IMG/VR virus record: IMGVR_UViG_3300047326_000043
Location: 1 to 32,477 of that record
Origin: a virus
DNA length: 32,477 bases
Direction: 5' to 3' (one strand)
Shown here: one piece after another, positions 1 to 18,626 of the stretch
Position numbering within the stretch: position 1 is the stretch's first letter
How the letters are laid out: each line of letters starts with the position of its first letter
Made by a program: the position numbers and the translations under genes
The notes under the pieces: generated by a model
Databases searched by the model: none
The model's input: only the letters and a program-made list of their open reading frames with translations
Told to the model about the DNA's origin: nothing

Positions 1-1511
1 CCGCCGGCTAACGGATTGGTGAACGTCTCCAAGTCGATGAACTTGAGGAACAGCTCGATGATCCCAGACAGCTCCTGGATGTGCCCGTCGATCTCGACGT
101 TGCGCACCGCGGGCCACTGCGCCGTCAGGCCTTCGTCATCGCGATAGAACGTCTTGTAGGCAGCGATCGCCGTCAGGTCCTGATCGGGCCGGAGCAGCGC
201 CGTGTTCATCTCGAGCATCGGGCCGCAGACCACCGAGGCATTGTCCAGGAGCATGCGCGTCGCCGCGGAGATGGACATCTGGGTGTCGCGGATCACATTG
301 GGCAGGCCGAAGCCGATCGGCGCCGTGTCGTCGCGGTCGAAGACGAAGTAGTGAGCCGTCTTCACATCCACGCCCAGATCGGCCCATGGGTTCATGATCG
401 CCCGGATGACATAGCCGTCCAGCAGCCAGACTTCAGCGTCCACTTGGTTGGCTAATTTGCTCTCGGGAACCTCGACGCCGCAGTTGATGAGCTGCGTCCC
501 GTCGACCTTCCCCTTCCAGATTATGATCTCGAACTTGGTCGTCTCGATCTTCGTCTCGTTGACGTTCATCTTGACGCCCATGGACCGCAGCTCGGTCTCG
601 AACTCCTGCGGCCGGTAGTTGCCGATCTGGTGGGACTTGAGATAGTCCTTGATCACATCCGCGAAAAAGTCCGGCCGGTCCGCCAGATCCCGCACCTGCG
701 AGCGGCTCATCACCTTGCGCTTGAAGTACCCGTCGCCGTCCTCGAGCCGCTTGGCAGCTAAATCAGGATAGAACTCCCAGACCGACAGGACATCGAACTG
801 AGGCATGTAGCTCTTGGTGCGCTTGCCGACCGGCTGCCCGCCCTGCATGGTCCAAGTGGTCGTCTCGACCTCGCGCGCGTAGGGACCCTCGAGAACCCCG
901 AGCCCATAGAGAATGCCCGAGGCCAGAGCCTCCTGATTGAGCGCGACATAGTCGTAGCTCTGATCGCCGCCCAACTCCTCGAGCTGGTCCTCGATCTCCG
1001 TCGCTAACGCGCGGGCGCGCTCAGTCGCCAGCTCTTGGATCGCCTCCATCACGTAGTCCATGTCCACGGTCGGGGGCGGGCCGCCGCTGGCTTGGTCCAG
1101 CGCTTGCTTCGCGGCGATGGCTTTCTGGAGGTCGTCCTTGGACATATCCGGGCTCGGCCGCGCCGCCAGCGTCCAGTTGCGATCGTCGGACGGAAACATC
1201 AGCTCCATGATCTGAGCCAGCATCGTGATGCACTTGACGCGGGTGATCTTGGGGAACGCGCGCGAGCGCTCGGCCGAGAGCTGGCTCTCGACCTCGGGGT
1301 CATAGTAGCCCAGGTACTGCCGCAGGTTGCGCAGCCAGCGCAGCTCCTGGATGCGGCGGTCGGAGCGATATTGGGTGAACAAATGGGTGAGGTTGTAGCC
1401 TAAAGCCTTGAGGGCCTCTGGGTTGATCTTCGCCGTAGGTGTGTCGTCGCCGGGCACGTCCACACCGGGCGGGCTGGCGTTGTTCATCATGACGGCTTCA
1501 GATTCACTCAT
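1..1511 (-). CDS. Phage portal protein (3' end beyond window)
   Basis: The minus-strand frame is open from an ATG at 1511 to the left edge (503 complete codons), so the C-terminus is missing. The start shares ATGA with the stop of the large terminase gene, which implies translational coupling. The portal is the dodecameric ring at the capsid vertex through which DNA is packaged. A motif around residues 395-425 (IGFGLPNVIRDTQMSIS then RMLLDN) is typical of P22-like and related podovirus portals, and the N-terminal half (RIQELRWLRNLRQYLGYYD, then KCITMLAQIMELMFP) fits the same family. Position right after terL is standard. The family call is by recognition of these motifs; whether it is P22-type or another portal type is uncertain. 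Confidence 0.82.
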   Translation of the reverse strand, partial: MSESEAVMMNNASPPGVDVPGDDTPTAKINPEALKALGYNLTHLFTQYRSDRRIQELRWLRNLRQYLGYYDPEVESQLSAERSRAFPKITRVKCITMLAQIMELMFPSDDRNWTLAARPSPDMSKDDLQKAIAAKQALDQASGGPPPTVDMDYVMEAIQELATERARALATEIEDQLEELGGDQSYDYVALNQEALASGILYGLGVLEGPYAREVETTTWTMQGGQPVGKRTKSYMPQFDVLSVWEFYPDLAAKRLEDGDGYFKRKVMSRSQVRDLADRPDFFADVIKDYLKSHQIGNYRPQEFETELRSMGVKMNVNETKIETTKFEIIIWKGKVDGTQLINCGVEVPESKLANQVDAEVWLLDGYVIRAIMNPWADLGVDVKTAHYFVFDRDDTAPIGFGLPNVIRDTQMSISAATRMLLDNASVVCGPMLEMNTALLRPDQDLTAIAAYKTFYRDDEGLTAQWPAVRNVEIDGHIQELSGIIELFLKFIDLETFTNPLAG

Positions 1512-3031
1512 CGAAAGTTATACCTCACGCCTCTCGAGATCGGCGGTCGCCGCCCCATCTCCGCGGCAACTTGACCGGGCCGAATGCCACGCTCCTGCTG
1601 CTTGTGGAAGTACCGGCACAAATACCCAAAACTGTCGCCGATGTGGGACGACTGGTTCTTCTCCGGCATCGCCTTCTGAGTGTCGTTTTTGGTCACAACC
1701 TCGAAGCGCCAACCGCCACGCAATGCCCGGATAAGCTGTGGGCACTGTTTCTCGTCTATCACAAGTGCGGGCTCGCCGTCCACCAGACGTGTCGTATAAT
1801 AGTCGATCGCGTCCAGGCGTCGAGGCAGTCGGTTGTCTGTCTCGATCTTCACACGACCCGGCCAGTGCTTCTTCAGCACATCCACAACCGCTCGAGCGTC
1901 GCTCTGCGCGCGGTTGGCGGCAGCCGGGTCCGGCGCAATGATCACCTCGGCGTTGGGGAACCGGCGGTTGAGGTAAGGACGAAGCTTCTCAGCGATCAGC
2001 CGCTCGGTCGAGTAGTCCTGCACCGCGATCTCGCCGAGCACCAGGAGCCGGCCGTCCATATCCTCCTGCCCGAAGACCACGCCCGTCCCCTCGAGACCGG
2101 GATCTAACCCAATGACCAGAGGATAAGCCGGTTGGAACAGCAGCGGGGATTTGGAAATGTGGAGCTTGGGGTTGAACGTGCTGACGACGGGCTTGCCCGC
2201 CGCGGAGAAGCCCCAGTTGCCATTGATGAACTGCTCGATCCACTCTTTGCTTTTGCCTTTGGCCAGATTTGTATAGTACGCCGGAGAGCCGTCGCGGGGT
2301 GGCAGGTTCTCCAGGTTCTCCGCGGTGGGGTCCAGGCCGCCGGGCTGCCGGAAATAGTGGACGTTGTTGGTGTCCTCGCGGTAAGGGCGCTCCCATTCGG
2401 CCCATTCGGCGTCGGTCAGCGTCGCGAAGTTGGGAGGAAGGTCCACACGGGTCACGGAAGGCCCGAATAGGTAGTCGTGCCACCAATTATCCTCGGTATC
2501 CGGGTTGGATGCGCCCCACATACCCCAGTTGGTGGCGCCGCCGTCCTTGGGGGCGGGGTATCGGCCTAAACGGCCGGACAGCGCCTCGACGATCGCACGG
2601 GGAATCTGGACGAACTCGTCCAAAATGGCGAAGGTCAGGTCCAAAGAGAGCACCCGGGTAATGTCGTCGGGGGTATCCAGAGGTCTGAAGAGGACTTCGC
2701 ACTCGACATCACCGAACCGGAGGGTGAAATTGCGCTCGGTAGCGCGCCATGTGCCCGCCTGCCCGTCCTTAAACCAGATGTTCCACGACGCGATGGTCGT
2801 ATCCTTGAGCTGCGGGGTGGTGTTTCGGACTATAACGCACTTCGTCCGGCGGATTTTGTCGTGTTGGGGGGCCTGGAGGGAGGCCATCCGCACCAGTTTC
2901 ATGAAAAGTCCGGTAGTTTTACCGCTGCCGTAGGGTCCGGTGATGAACGAATAGAACAACTCACGTGGGCGCATGTCCCGAATGAACTCGCGGACGGTCG
3001 GCGGGGGTGTATAGTCGATCAGCTCAGGCAT
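1508..3031 (-). CDS. terL: Terminase large subunit (ATPase-nuclease)
   Basis: This 507-aa packaging motor pumps DNA into the procapsid and cuts concatemers. The N-terminal ATPase has a Walker A motif GPYGSGKT at residues 32-39 and a Walker B with catalytic acid LTFAILDEF at 132-140, followed by a coupling-type motif GASNPD near 172. The C-terminal RNase H-like nuclease shows VIGLDPG (D309), IIAPDP (D367) and HIGDSFGY (D465), the expected acidic triad. I chose the ATG at 3031 because GGAGGGG lies six bases upstream and its A is shared with the stop of the preceding gene (TGATG); an in-frame GTG at 3052 would add seven residues. It is the second-last packaging gene, between terS and the portal gene. 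Confidence 0.95.
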   Translation of the reverse strand: MPELIDYTPPPTVREFIRDMRPRELFYSFITGPYGSGKTTGLFMKLVRMASLQAPQHDKIRRTKCVIVRNTTPQLKDTTIASWNIWFKDGQAGTWRATERNFTLRFGDVECEVLFRPLDTPDDITRVLSLDLTFAILDEFVQIPRAIVEALSGRLGRYPAPKDGGATNWGMWGASNPDTEDNWWHDYLFGPSVTRVDLPPNFATLTDAEWAEWERPYREDTNNVHYFRQPGGLDPTAENLENLPPRDGSPAYYTNLAKGKSKEWIEQFINGNWGFSAAGKPVVSTFNPKLHISKSPLLFQPAYPLVIGLDPGLEGTGVVFGQEDMDGRLLVLGEIAVQDYSTERLIAEKLRPYLNRRFPNAEVIIAPDPAAANRAQSDARAVVDVLKKHWPGRVKIETDNRLPRRLDAIDYYTTRLVDGEPALVIDEKQCPQLIRALRGGWRFEVVTKNDTQKAMPEKNQSSHIGDSFGYLCRYFHKQQERGIRPGQVAAEMGRRPPISRGVRYNFR

Positions 3032-6381: not shown

Positions 6382-6597
6382 ATGAGGAAAAAGACAGATA
6401 GGGGCTATAGGGAAAAAGCGCTGGTGCGGCTCGCCGCGGCGCATGAGTCGCATTGCATGGCCCTCCCGCACAGGCGAGAGTTGACCGGCCGTGAGCTGGT
6501 GGCGGCGGCCCTCGAGGCGCTAGACCGCTTAGCTATTGGGGCGGTCGAATTTCGGCGGCATGTGGAGTGCGCGATCGATGCGACGCAAGAGCGATAA
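6382..6597 (+). CDS. Small protein of unknown function, paralogue of next gene
   Basis: A 71-aa protein with an ATG start preceded by GGAGAAACGGAAA. It begins MRKKTDRGYREKALVRLAAA and is helical and basic at the N-terminus. The overlapping next gene starts MRRKSDKGCRAKAAAKWREA, so the two are tandem paralogues: both have an AH---C element around residues 18-25 and an ALEALD or ASLDAVD helix near the middle. It is the first gene after the strong promoter at 6195. I do not recognise a family. Confidence 0.65.
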   Translation: MRKKTDRGYREKALVRLAAAHESHCMALPHRRELTGRELVAAALEALDRLAIGAVEFRRHVECAIDATQER

Positions 6598-6775
6598 AGG
6601 GTGCCGGGCCAAGGCCGCCGCCAAGTGGCGTGAGGCACATGCGGCGTTTTGCCAAACGCGAGACGCTACCGCTGCGGTGGAGCTGATACGAGCTTCGCTT
6701 GACGCCGTCGATTGTGGCGTTCTTCACTGGGGAGATTTTTGTGTTTTTGCTGGCGAAGCTTTAACCTTTTGTTAA
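6578..6775 (+). CDS. Small protein of unknown function, second paralogue
   Basis: A 65-aa protein with an ATG at 6578 inside the 3' end of the previous gene (20-bp overlap) and GGAG ten bases upstream. It begins MRRKSDKGCRAKAAAKWREA, is related to the gene before it, and ends in a more hydrophobic Cys-containing tail (GDFCVFAGEALTFC). The TTAA-N7-TTAA promoter element overlaps its last codons. Function unknown. Confidence 0.6.
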   Translation: MRRKSDKGCRAKAAAKWREAHAAFCQTRDATAAVELIRASLDAVDCGVLHWGDFCVFAGEALTFC

Positions 6776-9246: not shown

Positions 9247-9371
9247 ACCGCGGTGACGTAGGCGAAATGCTATCGGACCTTGGCGTTGTCCTGGGGCTTC
9301 TGCTCTTGGCGCTCGTTGGGAGTGTGGTAGCTATGGCGTTGGTTCTAACCATTGGAGCGCTCTTGCTATGA
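9237..9371 (+). CDS. 44-aa single-pass membrane microprotein
   Basis: The ATG at 9237 lies within the last codons of the previous gene. After the short polar head MGLNRGDVGEMLSDL comes one long hydrophobic helix (VVLGLLLLALVGSVVAMALV). No clear ribosome site is seen, so translation is probably coupled to the upstream gene. Confidence 0.5.
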   Translation: MGLNRGDVGEMLSDLGVVLGLLLLALVGSVVAMALVLTIGALLL

Positions 9372-9478
9372 TACCTCGTTATTATATCTCGGACACACTA
9401 CTCAATATCGGCGCGATCCTTGTGCAGCTTGTGATCTTCACTCTGGCTTTCGCCGCGTTGGCATGTGTGATGTTATGA
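9368..9478 (+). CDS. 36-aa membrane microprotein (paralogue 1)
   Basis: The ATG shares ATGA with the previous stop. The peptide begins MIPRYYISDTLLNIGAILVQ and has one hydrophobic helix. The same design returns at 9722 as MRPRYYLSDTILVQLAILVQ, also 36 aa, showing that PRYY-SDT and the membrane helix are conserved between the two. That conservation between two copies argues that both are real genes despite their size. Confidence 0.6.
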   Translation: MIPRYYISDTLLNIGAILVQLVIFTLAFAALACVML

Positions 9479-9702
9479 GTGACGTGCCGCATATCATAGC
9501 GCAGTTGAAGAGCTTGCGCGAAGCTATGCACTATGCGATAGCTGAGCCTGATATCGCATGCTTAGGCGTGCTATGGGATAAGCCCCCGCCGGCGTCGCGC
9601 GCCTTGCGCGGCCTCGCGTATTTAAATACCGCGATCGTCTTACTGGCCGCGTATGAAAAACTGAGCAATGAGGCCGCCAGCGCCGCGAGGCGCGAAGCGT
9701 GA
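9475..9702 (+). CDS. Small helical protein, unknown
   Basis: A 75-aa protein whose ATG shares ATGA with the stop of the preceding microprotein. It begins MSDVPHIIAQLKSLREAMHY and looks all-helical. The last codons (AASAARREA) are encoded by dispersed hairpin element copy g, so the element reads through into the gene's 3' end. No family recognised. Confidence 0.55.
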   Translation: MSDVPHIIAQLKSLREAMHYAIAEPDIACLGVLWDKPPPASRALRGLAYLNTAIVLLAAYEKLSNEAASAARREA

Positions 9703-9709
9703 GACATAG
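9676..9709 (+). repeat. Dispersed hairpin element, copy g
   Basis: Plus-strand reading: GCCAGCGCC-GCGA-GGCGCGAAGCGTGAGACATAG. It overlaps the end of the 75-aa gene and precedes the second 36-aa microprotein by 12 bases. Downstream AGAAAGG gives that gene its ribosome site, as it does after copy f and at 7261. Confidence 0.65.
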
Positions 9710-9721
9710 AAAGGGAAGCAT

Positions 9722-9832
9722 ATGAGACCTCGTTATTATCTCTCAGATACGATCCTAGTGCAGCTTGCGATCCTAGTGCAGCTTGCGATCCTCACGCTGG
9801 CTTTGGCCGCGCTGGCATACGTGATGCCATGA
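9722..9832 (+). CDS. 36-aa membrane microprotein (paralogue 2)
   Basis: Starts MRPRYYLSDTILVQLAILVQ, related to the gene at 9368. The ATG has AAAGGGAAG upstream. The coding DNA holds an 18-bp tandem duplication (ATCCTAGTGCAGCTTGCG twice, near 9751-9786), which repeats ILVQLA inside the membrane helix; length is nonetheless the same 36 aa because the unit replaces other sequence in paralogue 1. Confidence 0.6.
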   Translation: MRPRYYLSDTILVQLAILVQLAILTLALAALAYVMP

Positions 9833-9865: not shown

Positions 9866-11224
9866 ATGCCAAATAAATGGATTGTACAAAATGGTGAGCT
9901 TGCGTGGTATGGCGAACGGTTTGTTTTTGATACCATCAGCATGGCGCGCTGGTATGGCCAGCCAGTGCCCATTATCTATCACGCTTGGGAAGAGCGCGAA
10001 ACCAGGCGCATGCAGGACGAGTATGATTTGGTCGCGTGGAAGGATTGCCTGTTCTGGCAGCAAGGCTACGAGCGGCGTGCCGGGCATTACGTGCATGTTA
10101 GCAAACAGGACCTTAGCAAGTTAGCCTATACCGAGAACATGAGCAAAGGCGAGCGCGATATCCAAACGCAGATATCGCCCGGTCGATACCTGAAAAAGTT
10201 TTATGGCGATGTTTTGAGCGACGTGGAGATTGGCGCATTCGTCGCGATGCACAAAACTAAATATTGTGCGCCTCCACCCAAAGAGGTTGAAGTCTTATTT
10301 GCCTCTACAGCGGATGAGATTGAGGACATCTATCTAAGCGGTCCTGCGAGCTGCATGTCCAAAGAGGTCGAGCACTACCGCAGCAGCGTACATCCGGTTC
10401 GCGTCTATGGCGATAGCGATCTTAAGCTAGCGTACTACGTCGAGGGCTCAGTAGTTCAGGCGCGTTGCCTGGTGCGCCCTGACACAAAAGCCTACGGACG
10501 CACTTATTATCGAGTGCCGGCGAACGAAGCGCGCTTGCGCGTGGCGCTCGAGAAGATGGGCTTTACCCATTATCGAATCGGCAAGGGGTTCAATGGCGCC
10601 CACATTCGTTGCATTCGTGACCTTGACCATATCGTCGGACCCTACATCGATGGGGAGTGCGATAGGGGTGAAGTTGTCGTGCGCAATGGCGCCCAAATGA
10701 TCAAGCTTGGCAAACATGGCGATATCCATTTCAGCGAGACGACCGGCTTTGCCAAGACGGACGAGGATGACGACAATAGCGTTGAGTGTCCTGACTGCGA
10801 TGGGTGGTTCGATCCTGATCACATGACAGAGGTTCACATGTACCGGGGAACGCAGAGCGTCTGCCGGGATTGCCTGCATACTAACTATTTTCGATGCTCA
10901 GCGACCTATGAATGGTACGCAAACGAGTATTATACATGCGTCGACATCGACGGCTCAGATTACTGCTTCGAAGCCAACGAGGATGATATCTCCTTCTGTG
11001 GTTTTACAGAGGAATACTATTGGGCAAGCGACGCTGTCCGGGTCTATCAGGACCTAGAGCAATCCGATTACGTGTGCGCAAGCCCTGATATCGAGCATGG
11101 CCAGCATGGCGTGATCTATGATGAGGCGACAAACGCCTATTATGTGGCAGCGGTGCAAGCCGATATCGATGCGCGGGATAGCTTAGATGAAGAGGAGGTC
11201 GCTGAAAATGACGTTGCAGCTTAA
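9866..11224 (+). CDS. 452-aa Cys-containing phage protein, unknown
   Basis: A well-formed gene with AAAGGAACC before the ATG. The first third is Trp/Tyr-rich. A motif SGPASCM at residues 158-164, followed by HPVRVYGDSDLKLAYYVEG, looks like the core of a large-phage protein family I have met only as hypothetical. Two CxxC pairs, C308/C311 and C333/C336, plus C344 could bind zinc. The C-terminal 100 residues are very acidic and aromatic (DYCFEANEDDISFCGFTEEY), ending DSLDEEEVAENDVAA, which might mimic nucleic acid. Function is not known. It overlaps the peptidase gene downstream by 17 bp and probably forms one transcript with it. Confidence 0.75.
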   Translation: MPNKWIVQNGELAWYGERFVFDTISMARWYGQPVPIIYHAWEERETRRMQDEYDLVAWKDCLFWQQGYERRAGHYVHVSKQDLSKLAYTENMSKGERDIQTQISPGRYLKKFYGDVLSDVEIGAFVAMHKTKYCAPPPKEVEVLFASTADEIEDIYLSGPASCMSKEVEHYRSSVHPVRVYGDSDLKLAYYVEGSVVQARCLVRPDTKAYGRTYYRVPANEARLRVALEKMGFTHYRIGKGFNGAHIRCIRDLDHIVGPYIDGECDRGEVVVRNGAQMIKLGKHGDIHFSETTGFAKTDEDDDNSVECPDCDGWFDPDHMTEVHMYRGTQSVCRDCLHTNYFRCSATYEWYANEYYTCVDIDGSDYCFEANEDDISFCGFTEEYYWASDAVRVYQDLEQSDYVCASPDIEHGQHGVIYDEATNAYYVAAVQADIDARDSLDEEEVAENDVAA

Positions 11225-12122
11225 GACGAAAGCGTGGGAGGACCTACGTGATATCCTACGATGGGGCCGGCCCGCCGGCTCCGCATTGGAGCAACGTTTC
11301 TGCGAGGCTGTGATCGAGCCGACAGGCGCAACGGCGGACGCGTTCGGAAACTACTGGCTCGACGTTCTCACTCCGGAAGATGAGCACTCGCCCGTCATGT
11401 GGTCATGCCATACCGATACCGTGCACTCTAAGCCTATCAAAGCCGCGGTGCAGTATGACGGGCGATATCTGGAGCTGCATCCCAACTCGAGCGCTTCCTG
11501 CCTAGGCGCTGACTGTGGCACGGGTATCTGGATCATGCTTGAAATGATCAAAGCGCAGGTCCCCGGCCTTTACATATTCCACCGCGCCGAGGAAGTCGGA
11601 TGCCAAGGTTCGCGATGGATACGTGACCACGCGGCGGCGAGCCTCGAAGGTATCAAGTTTGCGATTGCCTTCGATCGCAAAGGTAACGATAGTATTATCA
11701 CTCATCAGGCGTCGGGGCGAACATGCTCTGAGAAGTTTGCGCGCTCGCTCATGCCATTTTTGCCCGGCTATAAGCTGGACCCGACCGGCATGTACACGGA
11801 CACGGACACTTATGCTGATCTTATCCCGGAATGCACGAACCTAAGCGTCGGGTATGAGATGGCGCATTCGTCAGCCGAGCGTCAAGACGTGCTGCACGCT
11901 TCGCGATTGTTAGACTACGTCAAGCAAATCGACCAGTCCAAGCTCATCGTCGATCGCGATCCGACCGTGGCCGCGTTCGATCGTTACGGCTGGAGCACAT
12001 GGGATGAGCCTACGGACCTGGAGGGCTGGGTCCGCGCCAATCCCGGGGCCGCAGCGGCAATTCTCGAAGACATAGGTTTCGATTTTCGCGAGTGCACGCG
12101 TTTGTGGGGTCCCTGCTCATGA
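11208..12122 (+). CDS. M20/M28-like zinc metallopeptidase
   Basis: A 304-aa protein starting MTLQLKTKAWEDLRDILRWG, with GAGGAGG nine bases upstream. Ligand motifs of the M20/M28/M42 di-zinc hydrolase fold are visible in order: CHTDTVH (H68, D70), LGADCGTG (D102), FHRAEEVGCQGS (E128 as general base, E129 as ligand), AFDRKG (D156), and AHSSAERQDVLH (H220 or H230). The dimerisation domain of M20 enzymes is absent, so it is closer in length to M28/M42-type aminopeptidases. The substrate is unknown; such enzymes remove N-terminal or acyl groups and are rare on phages. It overlaps both neighbours. Confidence 0.8.
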   Translation: MTLQLKTKAWEDLRDILRWGRPAGSALEQRFCEAVIEPTGATADAFGNYWLDVLTPEDEHSPVMWSCHTDTVHSKPIKAAVQYDGRYLELHPNSSASCLGADCGTGIWIMLEMIKAQVPGLYIFHRAEEVGCQGSRWIRDHAAASLEGIKFAIAFDRKGNDSIITHQASGRTCSEKFARSLMPFLPGYKLDPTGMYTDTDTYADLIPECTNLSVGYEMAHSSAERQDVLHASRLLDYVKQIDQSKLIVDRDPTVAAFDRYGWSTWDEPTDLEGWVRANPGAAAAILEDIGFDFRECTRLWGPCS

Positions 12123-12475
12123 TCTACGACATTGCGATGCAGTGGGTTGCCGCGCTACGCTCCAAACGATGGAAGCAAACGCAGGGCACCCTGAAAGACG
12201 AGCACGGCAATTGCTGCCTTGGCGTGCTTTGTGAAGTACTCAACAAAAGATACGTGCTGCGCGTCTACGATGGTAAATATGAATTTGATGGCTCCACCGC
12301 GACGTTGCCTCATGACGTGCGGCAGCGCGCGCAGATAAAGACAGGCGAGGCCGCGCCGTTCCGGCGCGTCACGATCGACGGTGCGACTTTTTATTCACTT
12401 GCCGACGCTAATGACGGCGGGTGCACGTTCGAGCAGATCGCCGATTGGATCGAAGAGCACTGGGAGGAACTATGA
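12119..12475 (+). CDS. CCLGV-family phage protein, copy 1
   Basis: A 118-aa protein whose start shares ATGA with the peptidase stop. The motif W-AALRSKRWKQTQGTL, then GNCCLGVLCEV and a C-terminal SLADANDGGCTFEQIADWIE, marks a family common in phages and described only as hypothetical. Copies 2 and 3 follow directly. The paired cysteines in CCLGVLC suggest a metal site. This copy is the most divergent of the three. Confidence 0.7.
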   Translation: MIYDIAMQWVAALRSKRWKQTQGTLKDEHGNCCLGVLCEVLNKRYVLRVYDGKYEFDGSTATLPHDVRQRAQIKTGEAAPFRRVTIDGATFYSLADANDGGCTFEQIADWIEEHWEEL

Positions 12476-12831
12476 ACGAAGCAGCAATGAAGCTCTGGGT
12501 TAAGGGTTTGCGGTCTGGCCTGTACACGCAAGGCAAACAGGCCCTATTGACTCTCGAAGGCGACTTCTGTTGTCTTGGCGTCGCCTGCCACATGTTAGGC
12601 GACGTGCCTGAGAAAGAACGGTATGCCTATTCTTTCTCGCTTGACTCGGGCGGCTTGCCGGAGTCGGTGCGCAGAGCGCTTGATATGTTCGATCATTTCG
12701 GCGGTCGCAGGGACGGCAAAGAGATCGAGATTGGCGGCTCGCTCTATTTCTCCCTGGCGGATGCCAATGACATGGGGCGCACATTCGAGGAAATCGCCGA
12801 CTATGTCGAGGCTAATTGGAGGTTCCTATGA
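12472..12831 (+). CDS. CCLGV-family phage protein, copy 2
   Basis: A 119-aa protein with an ATGA overlap with copy 1. It contains LWVKGLRSGLYTQGKQALLT at residues 7-26, then GDFCCLGVACHM, and ends SLADANDMGRTFEEIADYVE. It is much closer to copy 3 than to copy 1: the DNA over KGLRSGL is nearly identical, showing a recent duplication. Confidence 0.7.
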   Translation: MNEAAMKLWVKGLRSGLYTQGKQALLTLEGDFCCLGVACHMLGDVPEKERYAYSFSLDSGGLPESVRRALDMFDHFGGRRDGKEIEIGGSLYFSLADANDMGRTFEEIADYVEANWRFL

Positions 12832-13187
12832 AGAAAGAAGCAATGGAGTTGTGGGTTAAGGGGTTGCGGTCTGGCCTGCTTACGCAAGGCAAGTGCTCCC
12901 TTCTGAGCATCGAAGGCGACTTTTGCTGTCTTGGCGTCGCTTGCTACATGACCGGACGCGTGCCTGAGAAAGTGCAGGTCGGCTATGCCTTCGAGGGCGC
13001 TACCCAGTTCATCCCTCCCTCGATCCGGAATGAGCTAGGTATGTTCAGCCCTGGGGGACACCGTAGGGACCTCATGCCGATTGCCCTCGGAGAAACCAGA
13101 TATAACAACTTGGCGGGCGCCAATGATGCGGGATGCACGTTCGCGCAGATCGCCGACTATATCGAAGCCAACTGGGAGGCCCTATGA
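12828..13187 (+). CDS. CCLGV-family phage protein, copy 3
   Basis: A 119-aa protein with an ATGA overlap with copy 2. It contains LWVKGLRSGLLTQGKCSLLS, then GDFCCLGVACYM, and ends AGANDAGCTFAQIADYIEAN. The middle third (residues 55-90) differs strongly from copy 2 although the ends are conserved, so the central loop is the variable part of the family here. Confidence 0.7.
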   Translation: MKKEAMELWVKGLRSGLLTQGKCSLLSIEGDFCCLGVACYMTGRVPEKVQVGYAFEGATQFIPPSIRNELGMFSPGGHRRDLMPIALGETRYNNLAGANDAGCTFAQIADYIEANWEAL

Positions 13188-13366
13188 GAAAGAAACCAAT
13201 CTATCTAGTCGCGTATATCGATTATGACGGCGCCAATGGCACTTATGCTTGTGCGTTCTCGACGCGCCAGCTTGCGGAGGATTTTAGCCGTACTGTCGGT
13301 GGCAACGTCATCGAGACCTATGTGGATATCCACGCAGACCTTACCCGCAGACTGGAGCCTTTTTAA
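13184..13366 (+). CDS. 60-aa microprotein, beta-beta-alpha type
   Basis: Starts MRKKPIYLVAYIDYDGANGT, with an ATGA overlap with the previous gene. The layout of two strands (YLVAYIDY, TYACAFS) then a helix (TRQLAEDFSRTVG) and a strand (VIETYVD) resembles the microproteins at 14604-16191 and 23769-24439, but sequence identity is too low to call them paralogues. Function unknown. Confidence 0.6.
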   Translation: MRKKPIYLVAYIDYDGANGTYACAFSTRQLAEDFSRTVGGNVIETYVDIHADLTRRLEPF

Positions 13367-13407: not shown

Positions 13408-13604
13408 GGTACGACCTCCCCCCGGAGATCGCGGAGCGCCTGGAGACTATCATCCAGCAGGACGGCTATCTCCGCCCGAACCGACGAGGCGCGAAAGAGC
13501 TCTTCGGAGGATCACTCTTCGAGGACGCAAGCACATATGAGCTGATCGGCCCGCGCAAGCGCCGTCCCGGACCCAAGTCCATCACACGAAAGGAGAAACC
13601 ATGA
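13404..13604 (+). CDS. 66-aa basic protein, unknown
   Basis: Starts MRYDLPPEIAERLETIIQQD; an in-frame ATG at 13386 would add six residues. The N-terminal half is helical (PPEIAERLETIIQQDG) and the C-terminus is very basic and Pro-rich (GPRKRRPGPKSITRKEKP), which suggests nucleic acid or acidic-partner binding. It shares ATGA with the MoxR ATPase gene, so the two are translationally coupled. Confidence 0.55.
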   Translation: MRYDLPPEIAERLETIIQQDGYLRPNRRGAKELFGGSLFEDASTYELIGPRKRRPGPKSITRKEKP

Positions 13605-14623
13605 AAAAGCTTACCATTCCCCAAGCCAAAGAGTTTGCGCAGCACGTTGCTTTCCGGCACGGTGAGGCCGTCATGTGGTGGGGCGCACCCGGCGTCGGCA
13701 AGACCGCCGCGGCGGTGCAGTTAGCGGACGATATGGGTGCCTATCTCTGCAAGTTCCATCTCAGCCAATACGGGTCTATCGACCTACGCGGAGCGCTGGG
13801 TGTGCGTGAGGACAGGACCGTGTGGTTCCCGCCGGCGACTTTGCCCTTCGAGAAGAACGCCGATCGGTTCCCGACCGAAGACCCGATCTTGCTCTTCCTG
13901 GATGAGATCAACGCCGCTACCAAAGAAGTCTCGGCGGTCGCCATGCAGTTACTCCACGAGAAGCGGATCGGCGAGCACGTCCTTATGCCCAACGTCGTCG
14001 TCCTGGCCGCCGGCAACCGCGAGAGTGACCGTGGTGTTGCGAACCGCATGCCGACAACTGTCGGCAACCGCCTGACGCATGCAGAGGTGGTGGCGGACCC
14101 GGAGGCCTATCGCATCTACCGGCAGGGCAAAGGATGCACGCCCGAAGAGCTGGCGTTCTATCTGTGGAAGCCGGAACACCTGTTCGACTTCCAGCCGAAC
14201 CGCACCGATCCAAACTTCGCGACGCCGCGCAGCTCCGAGGTCGCCTGGACCTATTACCAAGACCCTGATATGCCGCTGCACACTAAGAAGGCCGCGATGG
14301 AAGGCGCGGTCGGCGAAGGCATCAACATCGAGATTTGGGGCTTCTTGGATATCTGGCGCAACGTGGTCCCGATTGAGAGCATCATTGCAGACCCGGAACA
14401 CGTTGCAGTCCCTCAGGAGCTTTCGCTTCAATATGCGACAGTTACTAACGTCTCGAGCCACATGGACGTGAAGAACATCAAACCCTTGACGGCTTACTTG
14501 GATCGGTTTACGCCCGAGATGGCGATCATCGCATGGCGCACAGCGCTTCAGCGTGACCCACGCCTTCACGATACGCAGAGCTTCATACATTTTGCCAAGA
14601 AGTATGGTGACTTGTGTGGCTGA
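13601..14623 (+). CDS. MoxR-type AAA+ ATPase
   Basis: A 340-aa protein with AAAGGAG eight bases before the ATG. Walker A WGAPGVGKT ends at residue 35 (K34), Walker B LLFLDEIN lies at 97-104 and sensor 1 VLAAGN at 134-139. After the core comes a helical C-terminal region, as in MoxR proteins. MoxR ATPases act as chaperones with VWA-domain partners, often to insert metals or remodel complexes. A VWA protein with a metallopeptidase-like N-terminus lies 1.5 kb downstream in the same gene string (16169-17302), the usual MoxR partner. Clamp-loader or helicase roles are less likely. The call is firm at the family level. Confidence 0.9.
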   Translation: MKKLTIPQAKEFAQHVAFRHGEAVMWWGAPGVGKTAAAVQLADDMGAYLCKFHLSQYGSIDLRGALGVREDRTVWFPPATLPFEKNADRFPTEDPILLFLDEINAATKEVSAVAMQLLHEKRIGEHVLMPNVVVLAAGNRESDRGVANRMPTTVGNRLTHAEVVADPEAYRIYRQGKGCTPEELAFYLWKPEHLFDFQPNRTDPNFATPRSSEVAWTYYQDPDMPLHTKKAAMEGAVGEGINIEIWGFLDIWRNVVPIESIIADPEHVAVPQELSLQYATVTNVSSHMDVKNIKPLTAYLDRFTPEMAIIAWRTALQRDPRLHDTQSFIHFAKKYGDLCG

Positions 14624-14831
14624 CGCAGCGTTTTTAGTCGAGTACAAAAGCGGCGGCCACGCGTTCTATAAGAACCGCGAGGTCGCAATCATCAAAGCCG
14701 CGCAGTGCGGCGGCACTCTGTGGCGCTGGGATACCAGCACGCAGAAGTGGCTGATCGACGGCGGAAAGCAAGAGGCACTGATGCGCTGGGATAAAGACCT
14801 TCAAGCGTGGCGAGAGGTCGTCGACGAATAG
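14604..14831 (+). CDS. Array microprotein 1
   Basis: A 75-aa protein starting MVTCVADAAFLVEYKSGGHA; the start could also be GTG 14616, as no strong ribosome site decides it. It overlaps the MoxR stop by 20 bp. Pattern: two strands, NREVAIIKAAQCGGTLWRWD at residues 25-44, then two WxxD-type strands. It aligns with the DETEARIA-RYGG core of array members 4-7. The 152 bp that follow (14832-14983) hold no gene I can support. Confidence 0.6.
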   Translation: MVTCVADAAFLVEYKSGGHAFYKNREVAIIKAAQCGGTLWRWDTSTQKWLIDGGKQEALMRWDKDLQAWREVVDE

Positions 14832-14983
14832 TTTCCACCGGCGGGCTGGTTCCTTCCTGCATCCGCGGCAGTCAACGGGCAAGCGTGCAAGGCGCTACAA
14901 GGTTTGGTTCGGTTCCGCTAGGTGGAGAGGTTCATCTGACCGTGAAACCAGACAAGGCTGCCAACTATTGAAAGAGAGAGCGC

Positions 14984-15220
14984 ATGACCTTACCGATCGA
15001 GCTCCCGGCGCATGACGCTTATGAGTGGTATGTCGAGAGCTGGACCGGCAAATATCGCAAATATAACAGCCGTATCCAAGCCGAGATTGCGTTTCGGCAC
15101 GAATCGAACCTGCACAAGTTGTGCTATATCGACTACGAGGGCCATTCGCACGTGGTGAAACGGCGGACGCGGTATGGTAATCTACTCTCGGCGGTCCGGG
15201 CGGAGGACATAGGTCTATGA
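14984..15220 (+). CDS. Array microprotein 2 (divergent)
   Basis: A 78-aa protein with GAAAGAGAGAG before the ATG. It begins MTLPIELPAHDAYEWYVESW and then has RIQAEIAFRHESNLHKLCYI, which occupies the same place as the DETEARIA-RYGG helix of its neighbours. Basic C-terminus (VVKRRTRYG). Membership of the array family is plausible but weaker than for the others. Confidence 0.55.
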   Translation: MTLPIELPAHDAYEWYVESWTGKYRKYNSRIQAEIAFRHESNLHKLCYIDYEGHSHVVKRRTRYGNLLSAVRAEDIGL

Positions 15221-15238
15221 TGGAGAAGTGGAGGCCGT

Positions 15239-15457
15239 ATGACATATGATGACGTTTTGTGGGGGTATCGAGCGCCGGATGAGGGCTACTTAGTCAAGCT
15301 CCCTGATGGCACGCGCCTTCTCTACAGCACTCTGGAGATTGCGCTCATCAAAGCGGCGCGATATGACGGGGTGGTCCTGGAGTACAATCGTAAACTGGCA
15401 AAGTGGAGCCGATATGACTTCAAGAGCAACAAAGTGGGCGCTCTTCTTCCCCTCTGA
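15239..15457 (+). CDS. Array microprotein 3
   Basis: A 72-aa protein with a GTGGAGG ribosome site. It contains GYLVKLPDGTRLLYSTLEIA at residues 16-35, then LIKAARYDGVVLEYNRKLAK; LEIALIKAARYDG aligns with REVAIIKAAQCGG of member 1 and with EARIAQVRYGG of members 4 and 7. It therefore bridges the two sub-types. Confidence 0.6.
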   Translation: MTYDDVLWGYRAPDEGYLVKLPDGTRLLYSTLEIALIKAARYDGVVLEYNRKLAKWSRYDFKSNKVGALLPL

Positions 15458-15680
15458 GCAGGCGGTGGAGGGGTGTGTGGGCCTCTACAGGATGTTCGAC
15501 ACGGTGGGGAAGGGCGTGGGCACCTACACGACGTTCGACGATGAGACCGAAGCACGCATAGCGCAGGTTCGCTACGGCGGCCGGCTCGAACGCCAAGTCG
15601 GGCAGTTCTGGGAGGTCGTCGTGGTCATGGAGGACATAGAAGGAGAAGCCGATGAGACCGCTGTGGCGCCTGAAGTATAG
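15414..15680 (+). CDS. Array microprotein 4
   Basis: An 88-aa protein with an ATG at 15414 and GGAG six bases upstream, overlapping member 3 by 44 bp. The start is supported by member 7: KWALFFPSEQ here matches RWGFFYPQTS there. The core DDETEARIAQVRYGGRLERQ lies at residues 43-62, then FWEVVVVM and an acidic tail. The DNA at 15540-15583 is 43/44 identical to 16069-16112 in member 7, a sign of very recent duplication or gene conversion. Confidence 0.65.
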   Translation: MTSRATKWALFFPSEQAVEGCVGLYRMFDTVGKGVGTYTTFDDETEARIAQVRYGGRLERQVGQFWEVVVVMEDIEGEADETAVAPEV

Positions 15681-15888
15681 TAATCCCCCGCCTGGACACG
15701 CGCCCTACAAAGCCTTCTACGATGAGACTGAGGCACGCATCGCGCATGCTCGTTGCGGTGGAACGCTAGAGTATCTGGAAGGCGAAGGGATGACCCCCAA
15801 GTGGGTACGAATTGAAGGAGGAACCGATGTGGAGAGTGAGCTACCCTCCGACCAGCACGATGAGTGGCTACCAAATCTTTACCGATGA
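15652..15888 (+). CDS. Array microprotein 5
   Basis: A 78-aa protein with AAGGAG before the ATG and a 29-bp overlap with member 4. Core YDETEARIAHARCGGTLEYL at residues 23-42, then KWVRIEGG and an acidic C-terminal extension that is encoded over the start of member 6 in another frame. Confidence 0.65.
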   Translation: MRPLWRLKYSNPPPGHAPYKAFYDETEARIAHARCGGTLEYLEGEGMTPKWVRIEGGTDVESELPSDQHDEWLPNLYR

Positions 15889-15991
15889 GACCCAGGCGCG
15901 TATCGCACACGCGCGCTATGGTGGTAAGCTTGAACGCAAGGCCGGCGTAACGTGGGCGACGGTCGCAACCAGCAGGAGGGGCGCATGCTGA
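15827..15991 (+). CDS. Array microprotein 6
   Basis: A 54-aa protein, the shortest member. The ATG at 15827 has GAAGGAGG at six bases, and the gene overlaps member 5 by 62 bp. It begins MWRVSYPPTSTMSGYQIFTD and continues DETQARIAHARYGGKLER, then TWATVATSRRGAC. Only the core and one following strand remain, defining the minimal fold of the family. Confidence 0.65.
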   Translation: MWRVSYPPTSTMSGYQIFTDETQARIAHARYGGKLERKAGVTWATVATSRRGAC

Positions 15992-16191
15992 AACCCGCCG
16001 AGCCAGTGCGATGGGGGTTTTTTTATCCTCAGACAAGCGCGCGCCGCTACGAATTCTGCTGCTTCGAGGATGAGACTGAAGCACGCATAGCGCAGGTTCG
16101 CTACGGCGGCCGATTGGTGGCTCTTGTGGATGGGCTTTGGATGCCCGTATTACCTAGAAAGGGACAAAATGCTGAAGCCGAAAACAACTAG
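15985..16191 (+). CDS. Array microprotein 7
   Basis: A 68-aa protein with AGGAGG at seven bases and a 7-bp overlap with member 6. It begins MLKPAEPVRWGFFYPQTSAR, with the core EDETEARIAQVRYGGRLVAL at residues 28-47 and WMPVLPRKG after. Its 3' end overlaps the start of the metallopeptidase/VWA gene by 23 bp. That gene also begins MLKPK, from a similar ATGCTGAA(A/G)CC start, suggesting that the start region was copied along with the array. Confidence 0.65.
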   Translation: MLKPAEPVRWGFFYPQTSARRYEFCCFEDETEARIAQVRYGGRLVALVDGLWMPVLPRKGQNAEAENN

Positions 16192-17302
16192 CCGAAACAT
16201 CATGGATGCCATTAAGGGCAAGCTAATCTTTCGGCACATCTTCTTCGCGGCGTTGGCGTGCCGCACGCCGATGATCGAGGATCGCAGCATCCCGACGCTT
16301 GCGACGGACGGTGAGTCCATCTACTACAATCCCGACTTCCTGGAGGCACAGACTGAGCCGGTTCGGCTCTTCGCGCTGCTGCATGAGCTTGTGCATATTA
16401 TCGCGTTCCATGCGACCACACGCGCGAAGGGGCGCGATCCGCAGAAGTGGCAGTGGGCGATCGATATGGCGACCAACTGCATGCTGAAAGACTTTGGTTT
16501 CACGCTATGGGACAAGTGTATCTATGATGCGACCTTACACGGCAAGAGCGCCGAGGAGCTTTACAAGATCGCGCCGGAGTTTCCGCCCGATGATGCGATG
16601 GGGAGAGATATCCGCCCTGGTGCAGATGGGCGTTCGCCGGCTGAACAGAGCGACCTCGAAGAGCGCATCAAGCAGAACGTCGTGGCCGCCGGCATTCTGG
16701 CGCGCGGCGAGAAAGCCGGTGTGATGACTGGCGCCATGTGGCGCTTCATCAACGGTGTGACGGAGCCGCAAGTCCCTTGGAACGAGCTATTGCGCGACTT
16801 CGCGATCGCCAGCATGAACCCGAACGAAGAGACCTGGAACAAGCAGAACCGCCGCATGACGGCGCTCTACCCGGACTTTGTGTTCCCCGACTCCGACGCC
16901 GAGATGGACCGCATGGGCGAGCTGGTGATCATCGGCGACACCAGCGCGAGCATCGGGCAGAAAGAGCTGGACCTGATCGCGACCGAGGCCGGTGCCATTG
17001 CTGAGCAGATGCACCCGGAGCGTGTTCGAGTGGTGTGGGCGGACGATACGCCGTGCTCGGCTGAGCAGGTCTTCGAGGAAGGCGAGTTGGAGCTGAGCGC
17101 CTTGCGGCCGAAAGGCGGCGGCGGCACTGACATGCGCAAGCCGCTGCGCTATATCGAGAAGTACGAACCGCGGGTGGCGATCTTGGTCACTGACGGCCTG
17201 ACGCCTTGGCCGGCTCAGGAGACGCCGTACCCGCTGATCATTTGCTGCACAACCAACGCGGAGTGCCCCGGATGGGCGAAGACCGTAAGAGTGAGGACGT
17301 GA
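16169..17302 (+). CDS. Metallopeptidase-like / VWA domain protein (DUF2201-type)
   Basis: A 377-aa protein with AAAGGGAC before the ATG. The N-terminal domain has HELVH at residues 72-76 (HExxH), then WQWAIDMATN (about 95-103), as in the putative metallopeptidase domain that precedes VWA in DUF2201 proteins. The C-terminal domain has a MIDAS-type GDTSAS at 256-261, GGGGTD at 316-321 and LVTDG at 339-343, as in von Willebrand A folds. Such proteins are encoded beside MoxR ATPases and are thought to act as their substrate-binding partners. Here the MoxR gene is separated from it only by the microprotein array. The pairing is well founded; its target in infection is unknown. Confidence 0.88.
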   Translation: MLKPKTTSRNIMDAIKGKLIFRHIFFAALACRTPMIEDRSIPTLATDGESIYYNPDFLEAQTEPVRLFALLHELVHIIAFHATTRAKGRDPQKWQWAIDMATNCMLKDFGFTLWDKCIYDATLHGKSAEELYKIAPEFPPDDAMGRDIRPGADGRSPAEQSDLEERIKQNVVAAGILARGEKAGVMTGAMWRFINGVTEPQVPWNELLRDFAIASMNPNEETWNKQNRRMTALYPDFVFPDSDAEMDRMGELVIIGDTSASIGQKELDLIATEAGAIAEQMHPERVRVVWADDTPCSAEQVFEEGELELSALRPKGGGGTDMRKPLRYIEKYEPRVAILVTDGLTPWPAQETPYPLIICCTTNAECPGWAKTVRVRT

Positions 17303-17664
17303 CGGGAGAGACCTGGGACGCAAGAAGTGCCCAAGAGCGTCTTGCGATCGCGATCCATAACAACATCATCCGACGCTCGACTAAGATCATCGGCGGCCTA
17401 TATCTGGACAACGACTACGGGCAAGTCTGGCACAACATGCTTGACCTCGGCCCGTCGAACCCCACGCCTGGGGACGTGGTCGAGTACATCTTCAGGTGCC
17501 ATACGCCGATCGTGGGATATTGTTTCGTGGTCTTCGGCCGCGAAGGCAGCTACACCGCCGCTTATGTGGACCGAACCAAAATGGGGCGGCGGATGACGTT
17601 CGAAGAGTTCGAGCCCGCGCTGATGTATGCGCGCATGCAACTGATGGAAGGATGGGAAAAATGA
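17272..17664 (+). CDS. Hypothetical protein after the VWA gene
   Basis: A 130-aa protein starting MGEDRKSEDVTGETWDARSA and overlapping the VWA gene by 31 bp, with GGAG nine bases upstream. Its middle (IHNNIIRRSTKIIGGLYLDN) and C-terminal half (IVGYCFVVFGREGSYTAAYV) look alpha/beta with an acidic end. No family recognised. It is tightly packed between the VWA and DUF3150-like genes, so it probably belongs to the same functional unit. Confidence 0.65.
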   Translation: MGEDRKSEDVTGETWDARSAQERLAIAIHNNIIRRSTKIIGGLYLDNDYGQVWHNMLDLGPSNPTPGDVVEYIFRCHTPIVGYCFVVFGREGSYTAAYVDRTKMGRRMTFEEFEPALMYARMQLMEGWEK

Positions 17665-18626
17665 GCTTGGCAAACGAGGCAATGGTCCTCAATCTCTCGA
17701 TCGGCCTGTGGTCCGGCCAGAAGTTCGATAAGAAGTGGACGCAGGACGCACTGGCGGACGCCGGCGCAGCGCCGCAGAGCGCACGCATGAACAAACACCT
17801 GATCCCCGAGGACGCCATGCGGCCGATCCTCACCGCGGCGAACGCGCTCCGGTCCAACTTCTACAAGTGGACTTTGCCGTGGAAGGACAATGGCGACCGG
17901 CTTCTGACGCGGCAGGCCTATACCGACTTCATGAACGACCATGCAGAGCGCAAGACAGCGTTCGAGCTGGCGGCCCGCACTTTTATTGAGGACGTGTACC
18001 CTATCGTCCTGGACCGGGCGAGCTTCCGGCTGGGCACGCGCTTCGATGAGGGCGACTACCCGGCGCCTGACCAGCTCTGGCCGCGCTACTATGCCGTCCT
18101 GAGCATCGATCCAGTTGCCGCGGCGGGTGACTTCCGGGTCAGGATCGATAAGGACCAAGCGGCGCGCGTTCGGCAGGCGATCGAGGTCGAGACCAACGAA
18201 CGGATCGCCCGCGCGCAGTTCGACGTGCTCCGGCGCCTCAACGACAGCCTGGGCCGTTTCGTGGCGGCGATCCGCGACGACGGGAGGCTCCGCAACGACA
18301 CTCTGGGCGCTCTCCAGGAGGTGATCCGCGTGCTCCCCATGCTCAACGTCACGGGCGACACCGAGATATCTGCAGCATGCGCCAAGGCGCAGGTGCTTGC
18401 ATCCGCACTGGATGGGCTTGACGGCCCCGCGCTCAAGAAGAATAATACGCTTCGGAGCCGCCTCAGGGAGCAGGCGGCCGAGATCATGGAAAGCATACAA
18501 GCCCATGGACATGACAGAGCGGCAGATCAAAGAGACGTTGGACCGGGTGCGCCGGATCGAGACGCGGCTGACGCGATACCTGGAGACGCAGGGCTTCGAT
18601 ACGCAGACGCAGCGGCCGGTGCTTGA
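17661..18626 (+). CDS. DUF3150-like protein
   Basis: A 321-aa protein starting MSLANEAMVLNLSIGLWSGQ, with an ATGA overlap and AAGGA upstream. The opening hydrophobic strand then WSGQK, the N-terminal helix pairs (AMRPILTAANALRSNFYKW) and the TRQAYTDFM region match my memory of DUF3150 proteins, which are found next to MoxR and VWA genes in phages and mobile elements. A long central helix (QAARVRQAIEVETNERIARA) suggests a coiled coil. The last 40 residues after EIMESIQAHG are Ala/Asp-rich and lie over the start of the next gene, so they look like out-of-frame sequence; a frameshift or a true long overlap must be considered. Confidence 0.7.
   Translation: MSLANEAMVLNLSIGLWSGQKFDKKWTQDALADAGAAPQSARMNKHLIPEDAMRPILTAANALRSNFYKWTLPWKDNGDRLLTRQAYTDFMNDHAERKTAFELAARTFIEDVYPIVLDRASFRLGTRFDEGDYPAPDQLWPRYYAVLSIDPVAAAGDFRVRIDKDQAARVRQAIEVETNERIARAQFDVLRRLNDSLGRFVAAIRDDGRLRNDTLGALQEVIRVLPMLNVTGDTEISAACAKAQVLASALDGLDGPALKKNNTLRSRLREQAAEIMESIQAHGHDRAADQRDVGPGAPDRDAADAIPGDAGLRYADAAAGA

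Follow-up and report, generated by a model that had tools for sequence, protein, structure and literature searches.

MoxR proteins act together with VWA proteins, and the pairs CbbQ-CbbO, NorQ-NorD and RavA-ViaA each consist of a MoxR ring and a VWA partner. To our knowledge, the VWA partners of these pairs have no zincin domain and no DUF3150 companion. Here we describe a MoxR-VWA module in a 32,477-base record of an uncultured phage (IMG/VR IMGVR_UViG_3300047326_000043; the whole stretch is called the window below). The module resembles these pairs in ring and partner and differs from them in substrates; it includes a third gene coding for a DUF3150-like protein, and an array of seven small open reading frames, MP1-MP7, lies between MoxR and VWA (Table 1). 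Binding of a substrate by the MIDAS metal site has been shown for CbbQO: here the MIDAS of the VWA protein serves as adaptor by engaging an acidic substrate residue, and the work is done by the ring (PMC4660213).

Homologues of the MoxR and VWA-metallopeptidase genes are known as gp24 (PHROG 1297) and gp25 (PHROG 1314) of Escherichia phage N4 (Schitoviridae), in the same order as in the window; among N4-like phages gp24 was found to be a core gene by two of three methods and gp25 by one of three (PMC7650795). In the N4-like phages examined the two genes are adjacent or nearly so and, unlike in the window, have neither DUF3150 nor a microprotein array with them. Group 2.2 jumbo phages also have a VWA co-chaperone fused to an N-terminal metallopeptidase, as in the window; the passage describing the pair mentions no third component and proposes a role in virion assembly (PMC7824862), whereas the window has DUF3150. 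The MoxR/VWA-metallopeptidase pair is already known, the DUF3150 triad is an extension of the pair found in N4-like and jumbo phages, and the novelty sits in the module rather than in the array. A literature search for 'DUF3150', with most subscription journals outside its coverage, found nothing on the triad.

The MoxR-vWA ternary conflict systems (VMAP, iSTAND and FtsH) combine, as here, MoxR and VWA with a constant third protein, and in some of them a small domain (DUF397) is repeated in tandem alongside, comparable to the array in the window (PMC7159879). Their VWA proteins carry variable C-terminal effectors; the VWA protein of the window has an N-terminal peptidase instead and ends with its VWA domain (residues 252-374 of 377), and the third protein is DUF3150-like, which sets the window apart from VMAP ternary systems. 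PADLOC models of known anti-phage defence systems matched none of five proteins scanned, MP7 being the only microprotein among them. Planktothrix phage Pag-Yong1 (OL906435) is akin to the window in having MoxR, DUF3150 and VWA genes with three tandem small paralogues inside the module; these paralogues (111-115 aa) are unrelated to those of the window by blastp and are sited between DUF3150 and VWA, whereas those of the window are sited between MoxR and VWA.

Three large genes of the module

The MoxR and VWA genes of the original prediction are both present, as seen from PHROG and Pfam matches and from the Walker A, HELVHIIAFH and DTSAS motifs (Table 1). With 24-30% identity to the ATPases of N4-like phages and of phage G, the MoxR protein retains all the Walker A, Walker B and sensor residues of AAA+ proteins that were invariant in the alignment (P30, G33, K34, D101, E102, N139 and R157). 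Its closest solved structures are midasin and ClpA, midasin being the nearest relative in PDB. The VWA protein, encoded in the same cluster downstream of MoxR, has the HExxH motif and third ligand of a zincin metallopeptidase (DUF2201_N/SprT-like), with a weak SprT-like match in Pfam (E 0.02), and an intact MIDAS (D257, S259, S261, T320 and D342 conserved).

The third gene had been called DUF3150-like, and this name proved right for a divergent branch, as judged by protein similarity. Its product is 25-33% identical to its relatives, among them phage and plasmid proteins annotated as DUF3150. In Pfam it had no match, PF11348 at its gathering score included; the sole homologue matching PF11348, from a Cupriavidus plasmid, scored 22.1 bits against a cut-off of 24.9. 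The DUF3150 profile had no significant match to solved structures.

Table 1. Genes of the module, the array and the terminase in the window
Feature	Position	Strand	Matches and remarks
MoxR-type AAA+ ATPase, N4 gp24 homologue	13601-14623	+	PHROG 1297 (E 3e-78); Pfam AAA (E 1e-7)/AAA_5; Walker A GAPGVGKT at 13682-13705
MP1, 75 aa	14604-14831	+	like MP3 (E 3e-7) and MP5 (E 2e-4); 20-nt overlap with MoxR end
MP2, 78 aa	14984-15220	+	unrelated to the others; profile score inside shuffled range
MP3, 72 aa	15239-15457	+	like MP1 (E 3e-7)
MP4, 67 aa, GTG start	15477-15680	+	paralogue of MP5-MP7 (E 2e-8 to 5e-12); DNA repeat copy 15523-15589
MP5, 78 aa	15652-15888	+	overlaps MP4 and MP6; DNA repeat copy 15704-15770
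MP6, 54 aa	15827-15991	+	DNA repeat copy 15867-15933
MP7, 68 aa	15985-16191	+	23-nt overlap with VWA start; DNA repeat copy 16052-16118
VWA protein with N-terminal zincin metallopeptidase, N4 gp25 homologue	16169-17302	+	PF13203 metallopeptidase (E 1e-29); PF09967 VWA-like (E 1e-18); PHROG 1314 (E 1e-67); HExxHxxxxH (HELVHIIAFH) at 16382-16411; MIDAS DTSAS at 16937-16951
130-aa protein, no family	17272-17664	+	between VWA and DUF3150; no PHROG or Pfam match
Divergent DUF3150 protein, third module member	17661-18626	+	tblastn relatives in phages and plasmids, part of them annotated DUF3150
Terminase	1508-3031	minus

The triad in phages and plasmids

With tblastn, relatives of MoxR were found in 802 phage records and relatives of VWA in 528, while 309 stretches in viral contigs encode relatives of DUF3150. 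Complete MoxR/DUF3150/VWA triads were present in 89 loci (33 after dereplication at 60% DUF3150 identity), including Pag-Yong1, many viral contigs and plasmids of Cupriavidus, Robbsia, Simplicispira and Rhodovastum; this recurrence bears out the idea that the three large genes make one conserved unit. In genome contigs no DUF3150 was confirmed, though plasmid records carry it. The gene order is nearly always MoxR-DUF3150-VWA. The exceptional order MoxR-VWA-DUF3150 was seen in the window and in loci L044 and L166; in a tree of concatenated proteins, from which L166 was left out, the window and L044 cluster with support 0.81.

Key motifs were retained across the 33 dereplicated triads: Walker A and HExxH in 32 each, the third His in all 33, the MIDAS motif DxSxS likewise in all 33 and its later T and D in 32-33. 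This conservation suggests that the protease and adhesion functions of the VWA protein are both under selection.

Four MoxR-DUF3150-VWA triads (L056, L057, L058 and L059) reside on plasmids of Burkholderiales and Rhodovastum. Genes of PRTRC type adjoin the triad in L057 and L059, and VirB type IV secretion genes adjoin it in L057 (Robbsia p3). In the Simplicispira triad (L056), MoxR is separated from DUF3150 by eight genes, most of them hypothetical. Genes of DNA polymerase, helicase or exonuclease are near the triad in the window, L025, L028, L022 and L026.

Other small genes were seen around the module or its members. Several viral contigs (L121, L152 and L177) repeatedly show, upstream of DUF3150, two related proteins of 90-120 aa encoded ∼1 kb apart. 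Many otherwise unlike small proteins near the module of L026 (4036-19289) share a C-terminal helix with an RL-D/E tail. Downstream of the module of L023 (4960-5615) there are three tandem paralogues with glycine-tyrosine-rich low-complexity tails (GYGYGYGD), and in Bacillus phage G (L021, 4284-8841) six genes built from repeats of the unit LSEDFIREFxxxVDWxxISxYQ precede MoxR by a few genes.

The microprotein array in the window

At least six of the seven small genes had been described as clearly related, which is slightly generous: the paralogy of MP4-MP7 is unambiguous, MP1 and MP3 are distant members and MP2 is unrelated. The four close paralogues (E 9e-6 to 5e-12) have in common the motif F-x-D-E-T-[EQ]-A-R-I-A-x-x-R-[YC]-G-G; the more distant pair, MP1 and MP3, is tied in via MP5, whose score against the MP1+MP3 profile exceeds those of all 5000 shuffles. 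At the DNA level, MP4-MP7 contain four copies of a 67-nt repeat, spaced by 163-185 nt and 64-78% identical to the first copy. Differences between the copies fall mostly in third codon positions while the core DET-ARIA-GG is conserved, so that MP4-MP7 look protein-coding. A degenerate 41-base motif of the family occurs four times in the window, with no occurrence expected; together with the third-position bias, this shows that the array's paralogy is not due to chance. Sites resembling ribosome-binding sites precede MP3-MP7, and the frames are open in all copies. As MP1 overlaps MoxR, MP4 through MP7 overlap mutually and MP7 overlaps VWA, the array is likely translated along with the MoxR-VWA module.

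The 41-base motif, which matches all four copies in the window, had no match in 2.9 million viral contigs; in 84,980 genomes it had 10 matches, all due to chance as judged by translated context. Searches of viral contigs with the MoxR protein and the microprotein alignment confirmed nothing. A search for the same gene order in other phages had been suggested; the triad turned out to be widespread, while the array family of the window had no relatives. By these searches the microproteins appear to be an orphan, phage-specific family; the family is new, yet its members may be ordinary accessory phage genes.

For MP7, AlphaFold2 predicted a beta-beta-alpha-beta-beta fold with moderate confidence (mean pLDDT 76). 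Comparison of the predicted fold with PDB gave no significant match; the best matches were phage Dmd proteins (Foldseek E 0.45, probability 0.18), and the topology of the microproteins is loosely matched by many uncharacterised small phage proteins. The substrates of midasin have a ubiquitin-like (beta-grasp) fold. The strand order of the microproteins fits such a fold, yet no ubiquitin-like structure was prominent among the fold matches shown, and this assignment was rejected. Directly before MoxR, a 60-aa protein (13184-13366) has a strand-strand-helix-GG-strand pattern resembling that of the microproteins, with no significant sequence link.

Relation of the array to the module

The bracketing of a microprotein family by MoxR and VWA had been put forward as new; however, independent examples of arrays within the module are found in Pag-Yong1 (L004), L044 and L110. 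Pag-Yong1 has its three paralogues; L044 (3440-15256) has about two dozen paralogous genes of ∼70-100 aa that lie before, among and behind MoxR, VWA and DUF3150. In L110 (7209-15786; order DUF3150-MoxR-VWA) the interval from MoxR to VWA holds about six related genes of 106-139 aa, and similar-looking genes surround DUF3150 and follow VWA. Smaller paralogue arrays touch the module in L165 and L141. These families do not appear to be related: hhalign detected no similarity between the arrays of the window and L044, nor between those of Pag-Yong1 and L044, and by blastp or inspection only, the arrays of L110 and Pag-Yong1 showed no similarity to the window family. The fold confidently predicted for an L044 array protein, alpha-beta5-alpha (pLDDT 93), differs from that of the window microproteins.

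Most triads (29 of the 33) have no paralogue array inside. We looked for enrichment by sliding the module along its own neighbourhood. For 15 records, the count was 3-4 against 2.0-3.6 expected (P 0.2-0.5), which is no enrichment. For the 33 dereplicated triads, four loci were seen against 4.5 expected (P 0.76; P 0.19 when counted by genes), and with the window, L044 and L004 removed the values were P 0.96 by loci and 0.84 by genes. An enrichment indicated by an earlier count (12 of 62 pairs against 39 of 1804) was rejected; the signal came mostly from the window itself. Genes for the slide tests were called with a home-made procedure that overlooks some of the small ones, L044 being under-counted; a weak but genuine association between array and module may therefore exist. 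Elsewhere in the window, beyond the MoxR-VWA interval, there are further groups of tandem paralogues. One is a second array directly upstream (12119-13187), made of three 118-119 aa proteins of phrog_18067 with 36-57% identity and the motif CCLGV; a relative of these proteins is also encoded upstream of MoxR in L015 (3552-3941). Further small paralogue pairs are at 6382-6775 (71/65 aa) and 9368-9832 (36/36 aa). In the simplest reading, the module and the small duplicated genes share one accessory-rich region.

Genomic context

No close relative of the window was found among sequenced phages. The terminase gene is followed by a long plus-strand stretch with genes of a family A DNA polymerase, exonucleases, a helicase, a dCTP deaminase and a DNA methyltransferase; the MoxR, VWA and DUF3150 genes and the microproteins are upstream of the polymerase gene. 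An M28-type peptidase gene (11208-12122; phrog_4191, E 1e-69) is located upstream of the array region. Promoters, terminators, RNA families and tRNAs were sought, and none rose above chance level. A relative (G001) considered as evidence for a MoxR-less sister phage was rejected: its contig stops where the module would be.

Possible functions of module and array

We give an even chance to the following reading as a whole: the module is an ATP-driven remodelling or proteolysis machine, and the microproteins are its lineage-specific, probably host-directed add-on. MoxR, VWA and DUF3150 proteins would form a single machine, in which MoxR would be the ATP-driven ring, the VWA protein would grip targets via its MIDAS, and DUF3150 could be a constant third subunit, structural or adaptor. 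Because the VWA protein has the extra zincin domain, proteolysis is suggested; targets remodelled by the ring could be cut or clipped. The likely task would be to remodel or clear proteins of the host, or proteins bound to DNA, soon after entry and not to build virions, because the triad adjoins replication genes in phages and transfer genes on plasmids. Support for the machine comes from the linkage of the three genes in 89 loci, from the intact catalytic motifs and from precedents: substrate binding by the MIDAS in CbbQO, the interacting viral MoxR-VWA pair ATV p618/p892 (PMC4124505), and midasin as the closest PDB relative of the ATPase. The microproteins, a phage-specific and apparently recently duplicated family in what is probably the same operon, would most likely be host-directed accessory factors rather than obligatory machine parts. 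The array looks like a lineage-specific add-on because no relatives were found in the collections, most triads are array-free and there was no enrichment. Several observations weigh against this reading: the MoxR-VWA pair of Pectobacterium phage CBB is located among structural genes; virion assembly is the role proposed in print for jumbo phage MoxR-VWA (PMC7824862); and the overlaps MoxR/MP1 and MP7/VWA, with co-translation of array and module being probable, make a functional tie possible.

One could suppose that the module serves virion assembly and structural-protein processing, as proposed for the group 2.2 jumbo phages. There is a precedent in ATV p618/p892, an interacting viral MoxR-VWA pair (PMC4124505), and the location of the pair in CBB fits, although this explanation applies chiefly to such phages. 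For the module described here we consider it quite unlikely. Plasmids make no virions, and as the same triad stands on plasmids beside PRTRC and VirB genes, a purely virion-assembly role is unlikely; also, the N4 pair is flanked by early RNA polymerase genes on one side and dCTP deaminase on the other, and the module of the window's group is beside replication genes. The array could also be a decaying DNA repeat with chance reading frames instead of genes; overlapping copies and the repeat spacing would agree with this, but the third-position bias, the conserved protein core, the ribosome-binding-like sites and the open frames leave it hardly any credibility.

The original prediction saw the microproteins as possible partners of the ATPase, an idea that is unsupported so far, given that arrays are missing from most triads, are not enriched and belong to dissimilar families. 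Comparative evidence likewise lends no support to the use in counter-defence that it raised, and PADLOC models gave no match. In its broader form, the microproteins would be working machine parts, i.e. interchangeable adaptors or decoy substrates for the VWA MIDAS, or MoxR regulators, duplicated to broaden the range of targets. This we regard as unlikely, even though genes overlap on both sides of the array and four lineages (the window, L004, L044 and L110) interleave paralogue arrays of different families with the triad. A DE pair is common to MP4-MP7, and carboxylates are what MIDAS sites bind; however, this acidic pair is not conserved in MP1 and MP3. The unusual gene order common to the window and L044, which group together, and the tandem DUF397 genes linked to bacterial MoxR-VWA systems (PMC7159879) also speak for machine parts, while the differing predicted folds and the paralogue groups outside the MoxR-VWA interval speak against them. 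A further possibility, with no relation to MoxR, is that the small microproteins inhibit toxins or defence proteins of the host in the manner of the Dmd antitoxin. The top fold matches in PDB were indeed Dmd proteins, similar-sized phage proteins loosely share the topology, and tandem duplication would suit diversifying host targets; yet the Dmd match was not significant and MP7, the one microprotein scanned, had no PADLOC match, and we hold this explanation to be improbable. Just as improbable is a model in which a remodelling protease (MoxR, VWA-zincin and DUF3150) has its targets chosen by fast-evolving lineage-specific microproteins of the same operon, unrelated families having been recruited independently across lineages.

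With regard to the preferred reading of a remodelling machine, MoxR-VWA pairs are core genes in N4-like phages, yet no function turned up in the literature searched; the DUF3150 triad, with its conserved protease motif, offers a tractable system for finding the targets of such machines. If the microproteins were indeed adaptors, the module would be a programmable, fast-evolving phage protease.

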